Shown here piece by piece: positions 15,131 to 53,444 of a DNA stretch of 59,688 nt; within the stretch, counting starts at the first letter, position 1; every line of letters begins with the position of its first letter. The position numbers were made by a program, and so were the translations under genes. Source of the stretch: Oscillospiraceae bacterium (GTDB taxonomy: Bacteria > Bacillota > Clostridia > Oscillospirales > Oscillospiraceae); the NCBI GenBank assembly GCA_902768805.1, contig CACXMX010000004.1, positions 1-59,688 of the forward strand, in the 5' to 3' direction. Below the pieces are notes generated by a model. It saw nothing but the letters and a program-made list of their open reading frames with translations, was not told the origin of the DNA and made no database searches.

Positions 15131-15168
15131 CACAGGGGCCGGCGTTCCTATGAACGCCGGCCCCTGTG
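15131..15168 (-). terminator. Strong terminator on the minus strand, after repeat copy A
   Basis: A 17-bp perfect stem (15131-15147 with 15152-15168) with a CTAT loop. On the minus strand it is followed by TTTTTTCTTT, so it ends MATE transcription after repeat copy A. On + it is preceded by an A run and lacks a T tract, though it may still protect the ccsA mRNA end. Confidence 0.85.
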
Positions 15169-15389
15169 AGCGTGTCGACAAAGGCTCGCAGAGCTCATCG
15201 CTGAGCGGCGAACAGGACCATGATCTGTTTATGAGGCAGCTTCGCCGCCTCATAAACACCATAAGGCGAGCAGCGCGAGCCCGCGCGCCGACCAAACGCG
15301 GCGGCTCTAAGCGCGACGCCGCGTGCGATTGCGCGAGCTCTCTCGATTGAGAGCCCAGCGAAGCGGGTCTCAATCGAAGCGTGTCGGCA
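15169..15389 (-). repeat. Structured intergenic repeat, copy A
   Basis: This element of about 221 bases begins one base after the MATE stop codon on the minus strand and ends at the terminator at 15131-15168. On the minus strand it reads TGCCGACACGCTTCGATTGA at its start. It then has a 9-bp stem (CGATTGAGA/TCTCAATCG) around a GC core, a CGCGGCG/CGCCGCG stem and a GTTTATGAGG/CCTCATAAAC stem. It ends in TTTGTCGACACGC. It matches copies B and C over nearly its whole length. The + strand reading frames across it are not credible genes. Confidence 0.9.
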
Positions 15390-16778
15390 TCACCGGCGTG
15401 TCATCCCGAACGGGCGCCAGTTTCCTCGGAAGTAATACACCGTGAACATCACGAAAAGCGCCAGGTTGTGCGCGATCATGCACCCCCAGGCGGACACCAG
15501 CCCGAGGCCGAGCACCTGCGTGCAGATATAGGTCCCGACGATGCGGATCCCCCACATTCCCGCGATGTTGAACGCGAACGAGGCAACGGTCTTTCCCGCG
15601 CCCATGAGCATGCCCTCGATCACCAGAGGCACTCCGTAGAACGGCTCCGAACAGGCGACCATACGCAGCACGGTGCTGCCCAGAAGAATGACGGCGGCGT
15701 CGGCGCTGAACAGACGGACCATCGCGGGGGCGAAGGCGAAGAGCAGACCGCCGGATACGACCATCATGCTCACCTCCAGCAGCAGGATGAGCCGGGCCTG
15801 AGCGCGCATCGCCCGCTCGTCGCCGCGGCCTATGGCGTTGCCGGTCAGCGTGGCGGCGGCGGTCATCATGCCGTAACCGGGGATGTAAAAGGCGGACTCC
15901 ACGGTGTTGGCTATGGTGTGGGCGGCTGTGGACAGCTCGCCCAGGGAGTTGATCATCGCCGCGAAGGCCACATAGCCCAGCGAGGTGCCGAAGCGCTGGA
16001 GCATATTCGGAAAGGCGACGCGCAGGCAGGGGAGGAGAATGGCCCTGTCCGGCCTCAGCGAGACCCCGACGGGAGAGATCTCGCGGTGACGGCACAGCGC
16101 GGCCGTTATGGCGATCCCGCCGGCGGCGACGGCTATGGCGCTGGCCTGCGCCGCGCCGACCACGCCGCGCCCGGCGCCCCAGATCCTCAGCGAAGCGCCG
16201 AACAGCGTCACGGTGCGCGTCGGATAGATCAGCAGGAAATTGAGGACGATGTTGATCAGGTTCACCGCCAGGCCGACGCGCATGGGAGTGCGGGTATCGC
16301 CCGCGGCGCGCAGCACGGTGCCGAAGATCACGGTCGCGGCGCGGAAGAGCATCGGCGTATACAGTATAAAGAAATACCGCGCGGCCAGATCCCGGATGGA
16401 GGGATCCACGCGCATCCATACCGGGACCTTCCGGCTCAGGGAGAGGGTCAGCGCCGTGAACAGGAGCCCCGCGGCCAGCACGGCCAGCACGGACTGCCCC
16501 GCGGCTCTCCTGGCCCGCTCATCCTGACCCGCTCCGCGGGCCTGAGACACATAGGAAAGAAAGCCCACGCCGAAGGCGGATACCGTGCTGCCGATCAGCC
16601 AGTTGACCGTGGTGGTGGATCCTACCGAGGCGGTTGCGGCGGTGCCCAGAGAGCCGACCATGGCCGTATCGATGTACTGAACGGCTGTGCCCATGAGCTG
16701 CTCGAGCATCGTGGGCCAGGCGAGAGCGAACACGGCGGGCAGCAGCGTCCGGTCAAAGTATTTCGTTTTCGTGGTCAT
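15390..16778 (-). CDS. MATE-family multidrug/cation antiporter
   Basis: A 462-residue, 12-span protein. TMLEQLMGTAVQYIDTAMVG in the first span and MRVGLAVNLINIVLNFLLIY in the middle are typical of the NorM/DinF branch, and the second half repeats the layout with GYGMMTAAATLTGNAIGRGD. Members expel drugs or metabolites against Na+ or H+; the substrate cannot be read. Its promoter (16819-16848, -) is back to back with that of the next gene. The transcript runs into repeat copy A immediately after the stop and ends at 15131. Confidence 0.9.
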   Translation of the reverse strand: MTTKTKYFDRTLLPAVFALAWPTMLEQLMGTAVQYIDTAMVGSLGTAATASVGSTTTVNWLIGSTVSAFGVGFLSYVSQARGAGQDERARRAAGQSVLAVLAAGLLFTALTLSLSRKVPVWMRVDPSIRDLAARYFFILYTPMLFRAATVIFGTVLRAAGDTRTPMRVGLAVNLINIVLNFLLIYPTRTVTLFGASLRIWGAGRGVVGAAQASAIAVAAGGIAITAALCRHREISPVGVSLRPDRAILLPCLRVAFPNMLQRFGTSLGYVAFAAMINSLGELSTAAHTIANTVESAFYIPGYGMMTAAATLTGNAIGRGDERAMRAQARLILLLEVSMMVVSGGLLFAFAPAMVRLFSADAAVILLGSTVLRMVACSEPFYGVPLVIEGMLMGAGKTVASFAFNIAGMWGIRIVGTYICTQVLGLGLVSAWGCMIAHNLALFVMFTVYYFRGNWRPFGMTRR

Positions 16779-23769: not shown

Positions 23770-24004
23770 GCGTGTCGGCAACGCCGACACGCTTCGATTG
23801 AGACCCGCTCCGCTGGGCTCTCAATCGAGAAAACTCGCGCAATCGCACGCGGCGTCGCGAAGGAGCCGCCGCGTTTGGTCGGCGCGAGGGCTCGCGTTGC
23901 TCGCCTTAAAGTGTTTATGAGGCGGCAGAGCTGCCTCATAAACAGGTTATGATCCTATTCGCCGACGGGCGGCGAACTCTGCGAGGCGTCGCCTGTCGGC
24001 ACGC
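23770..24004 (+). repeat. Structured intergenic repeat, copy B
   Basis: This element of about 235 bases starts at the base after the mtnA stop codon and ends just before the terminator at 24007. It opens with a hairpin (GTGTCGGC/GCCGACAC). The CGATTGAGA stem, the CGCGGCG stem and the GTTTATGAGG/CCTCATAAAC stem follow. Near the 3' end is TTCGCCG/CGGCGAA. TGTCGGCA occurs at both ends. It is co-oriented with mtnA. Compared with copies A and C it is conserved through the central hairpins and more variable in the last 60 bases. Confidence 0.9.
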
Positions 24005-24006
24005 AA

Positions 24007-24040
24007 CAAAACCCCGCTGCGTACGCGCAGCGGGGTTTTG
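24007..24040. terminator. Bidirectional terminator between repeat B and rnpB
   Basis: A 15-bp perfect stem (24007-24021 with 24026-24040) with a TACG loop. The arms carry CAAAA and TTTTG ends, so a U run forms on either strand. It serves mtnA/repeat B on + and rnpB on -. Confidence 0.85.
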
Positions 24041-24049
24041 CGTTACTTG

Positions 24050-24405
24050 GTGCCGATCGGGTCTGTAAGCCGGGTTCTGTCTTAAACAGCCATCTGTCTC
24101 GACGCGCCGTTGCCGACGCGCTCAAGCCGCCTCCCCGGGACGGCCGGGCCGGCCATATGTCCCTCCACGGCGTTGCTCCGGATAGAGTTTACAGCATCGT
24201 TCCGTCTCCGGACGATGGGTGAGCTCTTACCTCGCCTTTCCACCCTTACCGCGGCTGCGAAGCAGCCGCGGCGGTATATCTCTGTTGCACTTGTCCTGGG
24301 GTCACCCCCGGCGGGCGTTACCCGTTATCCCTGCCCTGCGGAGCCCGGACTTTCCTCACGTACAGGCTTTCGCCTCGCACGCGCGGCTGTTCGGCCCGGT
24401 CGGCC
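24050..24405 (-). ncRNA. rnpB: RNase P RNA (bacterial type A)
   Basis: On the minus strand the conserved GAGGAAAGTCCGGGCT (about 24349-24364), the CAGGGCAGGGATAACGGGTAA segment and the terminal AACCCGGCTTACAG block are present in order. The 5' GCCGACCGGG pairs with the 3' CCCGATCGGC as stem P1 (one mismatch), which sets the ends. It is the catalytic RNA that trims 5' leaders of tRNA precursors. Its promoter is at 24411-24439 (-) and its terminator at 24007-24040. ORFs across it are spurious. The end points are good to a few bases. Confidence 0.95.
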
Positions 24406-53137: not shown

Positions 53138-53158
53138 AGGACCCATAAACAGCTTTAT

Positions 53159-53176
53159 CGCCCGGACGACCGGGCG
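53159..53176 (+). other. Orphan hairpin before repeat copy C, matching the terminator after it
   Basis: A 7-bp stem (CGCCCGG/CCGGGCG) with an ACGA loop and no T tract. The same stem with an ACAC loop and nine Ts lies at 53418-53444, on the other side of the repeat. TATCGCCCGGAC is shared by both. Confidence 0.75.
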
Positions 53177-53182
53177 ATCGAG

Positions 53183-53410
53183 CGTGTCGAAAAACTCGAC
53201 ACGCTTCGATTGAGACCCGCTTCGCTGGGCTCTCAATCGAGAATACTCGCGCAATCGCACGCGGCGTCGCGTCAGAGCCGCCGCGTTTGGTCGGCGCGAG
53301 GGCTCACAATGCTCGCCTTTTGGTGTTTTTGAGGCGGCGAAGCTGCCGCAAAAACAGATTACAATCTTATTCGCCGCTGAGCGTCGAACACTGTGAGACT
53401 TTTTCGACAG
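53183..53410 (+). repeat. Structured intergenic repeat, copy C
   Basis: About 228 bases, co-oriented with the CsoR-type gene. It opens with a GTGTCGA/TCGACAC hairpin and ends TTTTTCGACAG, which can also pair with the opening TGTCGAAAAA. The CGATTGAGA and CGCGGCG stems are unchanged. The GTTTATG/CATAAAC arm of copies A and B appears here as GTTTTTG/CAAAAAC, changed on both sides so pairing is kept. The + strand frame at 53287-53508 across it is not a gene. Confidence 0.9.
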
Positions 53411-53417
53411 ATTATAT

Positions 53418-53444
53418 CGCCCGGACACCCGGGCGTTTTTTTTT
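53418..53444 (+). terminator. Terminator after repeat copy C
   Basis: A 7-bp stem (53418-53424 with 53429-53435), ACAC loop, then nine Ts. Confidence 0.85.

Follow-up and report, generated by a model that had tools for sequence, protein, structure and literature searches.

Three copies of a structured repeat at gene ends

The window, a stretch of 59,688 nucleotides of contig CACXMX010000004.1 from an Oscillospiraceae bacterium, holds three copies of a structured repeat, at 15169-15389 on the minus strand (copy 1) and at 23770-24004 and 53183-53410 on the plus strand (copies 2 and 3), which align with one another over about 220-235 bases. Against copy 2 as the reference, copies 1 and 3 are each 86% identical (E values 4.9e-70 and 1.3e-67, respectively), which excludes a chance likeness and confirms the grouping of the three in a preliminary description of this DNA. 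The genes upstream are, as that description had it, unrelated, being of the MatE (MATE; copy 1), IF-2B/mtnA (copy 2) and CsoR-repressor (copy 3) types. Copy 1 lies between convergent genes, the facing one being a cytochrome-c-assembly-type gene on the plus strand, and copy 2 lies between mtnA (+) and the convergent rnpB, the RNase P RNA gene (24050-24402, -). Either orientation of these two copies is therefore 'sense' to one neighbor, and strand is informative for copy 3 only.

Read on its own strand, the repeat runs from a 5' hairpin, P0, through P1, a core helix (CTCGCGC/GCGCGAG) around P3, P4, P5 and P6 to a right end. In copy 2, P0 (23770..23792), which forms the left inverted-repeat end and adjoins the mtnA stop codon, is followed by a P1-P5 stretch (23793..23943) comprising P1 (23793-23829), the P2-P3 core (23834-23888), P4 (23889-23905) and P5 (23913-23943), and then by P6 (23958-23976) and the right end (23985-24004), which together span 23958..24004; the terminator hairpin T2 (24007..24040), between mtnA and rnpB, has no matching hairpin on the 5' side. 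Copy 1 has the same order on the minus strand, with a degenerate P0 as its left end (15379..15402), no longer intact and overlapping the last MATE codons and the TGA stop, a P1-P5 stretch (15227..15378) made up of P1 (15342-15378), the P2-P3 core (15282-15337), P4 (15265-15281) and P5 (15227-15257), and then P6 (15194-15212) and the right inverted-repeat end with TTTGTCGACA (15166-15185), together 15166..15212; its T2 (15131..15168), 3' of the element, is likewise unmatched on the other side. Copy 3, on the plus strand, is preceded by a hairpin, T1 (53157..53178), which we read as a duplicated target, and continues with P0 (GCGTGTCGAAAAACTCGACACGC, 53182..53204) as the left inverted-repeat end and a P1-P6 stretch (53205..53388) of P1 (53205-53241), the P2-P3 core (53246-53300), P4 (53301-53317), P5 (53325-53355) and P6 (53370-53388). 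Its right inverted-repeat end, CTTTTTCGACAG (53397..53413), complements the left end and resembles IS1182-type ends, and the terminator hairpin T2 with its T-run (53416..53444) has the same stem (53416-53435) as T1.

The order of gene, repeat and terminator proposed in the preliminary description thus stands insofar as a hairpin with T's lies 3' of each copy (the run of copy 2 being just four T's), but the hairpin that precedes copy 3 had been overlooked. Similarly, of the two copies said to begin directly after a stop codon, copy 2 does so after mtnA, whereas the MATE stop lies inside what remains of the P0 of copy 1. The view that no named family fits agrees with Rfam scans of the window at gathering and permissive thresholds, which matched no family to the repeat and placed RNase P alone over gathering, and with scans of the copy flanks at 13 loci, where only T-box and tRNA exceeded gathering, none of them in the repeat.

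Copies, ends and middles in the genome

The genome to which the window belongs (G000) is a draft assembly of 1.93 Mb in 131 contigs, 78% complete. Copy 2 as a query gave 32 matches in it, which, with self-complementary and same-place rows left out, resolve into 27 dispersed full or partial copies, the long ones of about 190-235 bases being too short for a transposase gene. P0 of the intact copies reads GCGTGTCGAC AAA GTCGACACGC, and the right end, CTTTGTCGACAG, is complementary to P0's left arm together with its loop, which makes it a terminal inverted repeat; by eye, intact copies carry TGTCGAMAAA on the left and its complement TTTKTCGACA on the right. Several others are degenerate or truncated on one side. 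The partial copies L016 and L028, in different places, share a foreign middle with identical junctions on both sides, and a similar middle is found in L018 and L026; hence, judging by these junctions, the outer parts of the repeat seem to travel as a unit. The foreign middle of these four copies is itself a second structured repeat (AATCGCGCGGATCTCTGCGG...GGGCGGGAACCATGTTCCCCCC...CCCCCTTCTTTTTGGAA), which stands alone at L035 and as a tandem row of partial repeats at L036. A tmRNA gene suspected beside L036 was dropped when ARAGORN found none.

Placement and strand

Genes were called with a codon-usage caller, the calls being checked by eye on the window only. On these calls, 16 of the 27 copies lie between convergent genes, 8 between co-directional neighbors in the sense orientation and 2 in the antisense orientation, with 1 cut and none between divergent genes; window copy 2 is counted among the 8, though it in fact faces the convergent rnpB. 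While 25 of the 27 follow a gene on their own strand, this gene-strand rule is weak because it is trivially true of the 16 copies between convergent protein genes and because antisense copies exist. What the genome displays is a preference for gene ends with some strand bias, and no rule.

The covariance model described below gave 91 matches elsewhere (88 unique sequences), among the matches listed, from 93 loci that were chosen mostly by an exact-core pattern scan and are biased accordingly. Among these, 47 are sense and 22 antisense to two co-directional neighbors, the remainder being divergent (8), convergent (7) or cut (7). In 33 of the 45 sense co-directional copies of relatives (repeats counted once, among the matches listed), P1 starts between -6 and +15 bases from the stop codon. 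This tabulation of strand and position, in the genome itself and in relatives, does not uphold the earlier claim of a 3' UTR element always set in gene orientation. In two repeats with other ends, L086 and L146, the upstream gene appears to end on a stop codon supplied by the initial bases of the repeat, TAG or TAA; this may keep the damage of insertion small.

Locus-specific hairpins flank some of the copies

Several copies in the genome have the same hairpin on their 5' and 3' sides. We scored the left flank of each of 20 copies against the right flank of every copy, giving 380 cross pairs; 2 of 22 copies (L011 and L012) had no motif match and were left out, L012 displaying a hairpin pair by eye. 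For L002, L003, L008 (window copy 3), L014 and L020 the match between the copy's own flanks lay above all 380 cross pairs, the own-flank score of L010 was reached by 1 cross pair and that of L007 by 10, and none of 20,000 permutations attained the summed own-pair score. Thus, 7 of the 20 copies, window copy 3 included, lie between two versions of one locus-specific hairpin, and 13, among them window copies 1 and 2, have no matching pair. A wider comparison of 69 copies from this genome and its congeners, restricted to those with the right motif at no more than 2 mismatches, placed 12 above the 99th percentile of the cross-pair scores, which reached 61 at most; by eye, 9 of these are hairpins, two of the 9 being own-genome copies, and the flank duplications of L324, L294 and L285 have no hairpin. 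In L324 (G005:C28), 58 bases from the 3' end of gyrB recur beyond the repeat copy, as if the insertion had duplicated the end of the gene; the duplications at L294 and L285 measure 17-29 bases.

By folding energy, 24 of 25 scored copies have a hairpin at or below -20.4 kcal/mol within 60 bases of at least one end (6 on both sides, 5 on the left only, 13 on the right only), this being the 5% level of a control of 150 random 60-base windows drawn from the whole window, which is mostly genic. The scan covered 25 of the 27 copies (L015 and L019 aside); L022, L024 and L025, which lack a 3' end, entered it with their left side alone, and in L022 the hairpin concerned sits within a gene. The single exception is window copy 3, at -17.1 and -15.1 kcal/mol. 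At three loci (L265, L150 and L007), the same stem occurs on both sides with loops that are reverse complements of each other or nearly so, as if one hairpin copy had been inverted.

IS1182-type elements with similar ends

The IS1182-type transposase domain PF13751 is found in 25 of 150 genomes of the bacterial family (E 1e-10). Two loci, L265 and L266, encode IS1182 transposases by NCBIfam NF033551 (386 and 385 bits against a cut-off of 270), each between matching hairpins of about 31-32 bases and with the ends GGCAGACTGTCGA and CAGTTTGTCAAAAAA; in L265 the hairpin loop is inverted from one side to the other. In a survey of 34 IS1182-type loci in the family genomes, of which L338 repeats L247 and L340 repeats L253, a 15-base inverted repeat, CAGNYTGTCRAAAAA, occurs with no more than 2 mismatches in 19. 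At no more than 1 mismatch, this end directly follows a hairpin of -19 kcal/mol or stronger in 8 distinct elements of the same bacterial family: L232, L247, L250 and L267, and, with hairpin and end on both sides, L246, L248, L265 and L266, the last two between matching hairpins. Ends of this type (no more than 1 mismatch) stand without a strong hairpin in L241, L247 (left), L253 (= L340) and L339. L246 and L248 have strong hairpins beside both ends that differ from each other, for which simple duplication alone gives no account.

By eye, the right end of the repeat reads like the CAGNYTGTCRAAAAA ends of these elements (e.g., the complement GCAGACTGTTGATAAAG in L007), and the left end (GAGCGTGTCGACAAAG) matches them less well. 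The preliminary description had regarded a match to a known transposon end family as the mark of a MITE, and the IS1182-type ends supply one, read by eye. A profile search of G000 gave no match to PF13751, PF01609 or an IS1182 transposase, an absence that is weak in an assembly 78% complete, and among the 9 genomes of the genus IS1182 transposases appear as fragments only, in G001 only. DDE_Tnp_1 matches in G002 (L236) and G110 (L233) proved to be IS5-family transposases (265 and 288 bits, cut-off 140) and were set aside; a further DDE_Tnp_1 match occurs in G180 (L237).

The mtnA site in congeners

We found mtnA in 6 of the 9 genus genomes, that of the window included. In G002 its stop is followed by a plain terminator without the repeat, in G008 by a hairpin without the repeat (by eye), and in G003 and G006 by neither repeat nor clear terminator (by eye). 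In G004, mtnA is followed by a sister repeat in the reverse direction, antisense to the gene, with a 24-base hairpin sequence present in identical form on each side of it. None of these counts as a strict empty site, since the downstream neighbors of mtnA differ in the congeners and no rnpB was found at the five loci; read by comparison of the sequences, they point to independent insertion, in opposite orientation, after the same gene. The sister repeat of the congeners has a similar P1 and right end around another core (GGCCCGCTGCA...GCAGGCCGAGAAGTGTTTTTCC) and is seen at L059, L065, L067, L068, L074, L075, L077 and L270; by eye, L067, L074 and L270 lie between duplicated terminator hairpins.

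The folded core beyond this genome

Scanning named genomes for the core pattern returned at least 120 stretches. The titles of the matches listed are uncultured Oscillospiraceae, Ruminococcaceae, Clostridiales, Eubacteriales and Clostridia, with one Oscillibacter sp., and many come from ruminants. The covariance model that the preliminary description had suggested, built from 25 copies and scored on at most 20 candidates per genome, matches 14 of the 150 family genomes, that of the window included. Of 42 pairs, 23 have changed on both sides. Among P1 pairs, 96% are Watson-Crick, and many positions show all four pair types. G-U and A-C cells number 11 and 18 of 1081 in P1 and 58 and 36 in P5, and the 186 G-U cells of the core come nearly all from two invariant columns. 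With no clear excess of G-U over A-C in P1 and P5, an RNA read on one strand is not favored, and a DNA palindrome is as likely.

The ends that accompany this core vary. Among the matches listed, a P0-like hairpin is present in 5 of the 88 unique copies from relatives and an IS1182-like right end (no more than 2 mismatches) in 3. Other copies begin with TRGTCRATTGCGAAA, 18 with a candidate matching right end; four of these 18 (L115, L119, L120 and L152) display direct duplications of about 10 bases by eye. The core occurs with IS1182-type ends or flanks in G000 and, by eye, at L121, L128, L150, L169 and L170, where the hairpin pairs are likewise a by-eye reading. On these sequence comparisons, the core is carried by at least two kinds of ends in uncultured Oscillospiraceae. 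Three near-identical orthologous copies (98% identical together with their flanks) are by eye no more conserved than the flanks, and are uninformative.

Discussion

The copies, their inverted-repeat ends, the duplication of a locus-specific hairpin around some of them, and the occurrence, next to hairpins, of IS1182 elements sharing those ends are observed features of these genomes. We consider it probable that the repeat is a MITE, a non-autonomous element about 230 bases long with IS1182-type ends, which would insert at the hairpins of intrinsic terminators and often duplicate them. As expected of a MITE, it is short, has no transposase gene, ends in terminal inverted repeats, has a duplicated target in 7 of 20 copies and is present in many dispersed copies; an autonomous partner was not found in the same genome, at its 78% completeness. 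With the IS1182 family it shares similar ends (by eye, the left less well) and insertion at stem-loops; lacking the transposase gene of that family, it is at most a derivative and not a member. The preliminary description's other suggestion, a mobile palindromic element that targets terminators, is thus favored by the duplicated hairpins, the ends and the mtnA sites of congeners.

In the mechanism that we propose, an IS1182-family transposase acting in trans would recognize the terminal inverted repeats (approximately NAGNNTGTCGAMAAA), and the element would be inserted at the base of a stem-loop, usually that of an intrinsic terminator, with the whole stem-loop duplicated on both sides of the insertion. 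The order of gene, hairpin (where present), repeat and terminator would then follow because the terminator hairpin is the chosen target. In copies without an upstream hairpin, a deletion extending towards the stop codon may have removed it; alternatively, these copies may represent the 'replacement' outcome described for IS1272.

The parallels with known systems are partial. IS1272 of S. aureus, of the IS1182 family, targets stem-loops defined by structure and not by sequence, and the model of its authors, in the part of the paper available to us, has whole-stem-loop duplication among the outcomes (PMC5678879). The repeat is like it in its inverted-repeat ends and stem-loop target. However, IS1272 encodes a transposase and the repeat carries none, and the new IS1272 insertions described in that part of the account replaced the stem-loop without duplication, whereas the hairpin of the repeat is often duplicated (PMC5678879). 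BOX, RUP and SPRITE of Streptococcus pneumoniae are described as small folded repeats, probably non-autonomous mobile elements, enriched between convergent genes, the ends of BOX and RUP resembling those of resident IS elements; the likeness to our repeat is drawn from these descriptions, and, unlike it, they are not described as duplicating terminator hairpins in the available part of that source (PMC3049150). ISPsy8, ISPa11, ISRm22 and others insert into REP extragenic palindromes but, going by the accessible portion of the account, their target is a defined repeat family and they carry transposases, in contrast to the repeat (PMC1525189). A search of one collection of open-access papers found no matching account of such a MITE.

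Other explanations have to be weighed against this reading. That the repeat is a transcribed 3' UTR element, which the host keeps for mRNA stability, small-RNA release or control of termination and selection places on the gene strand after the stop, appears improbable to us. Such an element would suit the 25 of 27 copies that follow a gene on their own strand, the proximity of P1 to stop codons in relatives and the strong, covarying hairpin structure. However, the majority between convergent genes says nothing of strand, leaving a co-directional split of 8 to 2; the 22 of 91 listed matches elsewhere that are antisense to both neighbors and the antisense sister repeat after mtnA in G004 run counter to it; and the clear excess of G-U over A-C that is expected if RNA pairing on one strand counted is not seen. 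Very improbable, in turn, is mobility by other machinery, either single-strand transposition of the IS200/605 type or a retroelement that targets terminators as group IIC introns do. Group IIC introns target terminator stem-loops, and terminal hairpins together with terminator targeting recall both them and the IS200/605 systems. Yet the Rfam scans of the window and the 13 loci matched no group II intron or IS605-associated RNA family, and we know of no duplicated targets or inverted-repeat ends in either system.

A further possibility, which we regard as rather unlikely though it is compatible with the MITE reading for the window copies, is that two unrelated types of transposon end have each captured the core, itself a module of the host or a selfish one; the ends would then set placement, and the core would have a function of its own. 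The occurrence of one core with IS1182-type ends or flanks in some repeats and, in others, with TRGTCRATTGCGAAA ends flanked by roughly 10-base duplications would fit such a capture; but Watson-Crick palindromes without a G-U excess fit a constraint of transposition at the DNA level equally well, and the three orthologous copies are, by eye, no more conserved than their flanks. In a similarly tentative vein, and against the balance of probability, the core (P1, CTCGCGC-NNATCGCA-P3-TTTGGTCGGCGCGAG, P4 and P5) might be a functional nucleic-acid module that mobile repeats of uncultured Oscillospiraceae share although their ends belong to two or more unrelated sets. A host factor or a transposase might recognize it as a structure in single-stranded DNA or in RNA, with selection keeping the palindromes over the sequence; combined with IS1182-type ends, it would constitute a terminator-seeking element that duplicates its hairpin target.

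Returning to the MITE reading, the loci described here offer naturally occurring examples, from several genomes, in which an entire stem-loop is duplicated next to an IS1182-type element; in the part available, the IS1272 paper proposed this outcome as a model only (PMC5678879). The striking 3' UTR pattern would be the target choice of a mobile element, a warning against reading such repeats as regulators. That the folded core is shared makes its role directly testable. Finally, by seeking out terminators, such MITEs would allow repeats to spread at low cost and without breaking genes.
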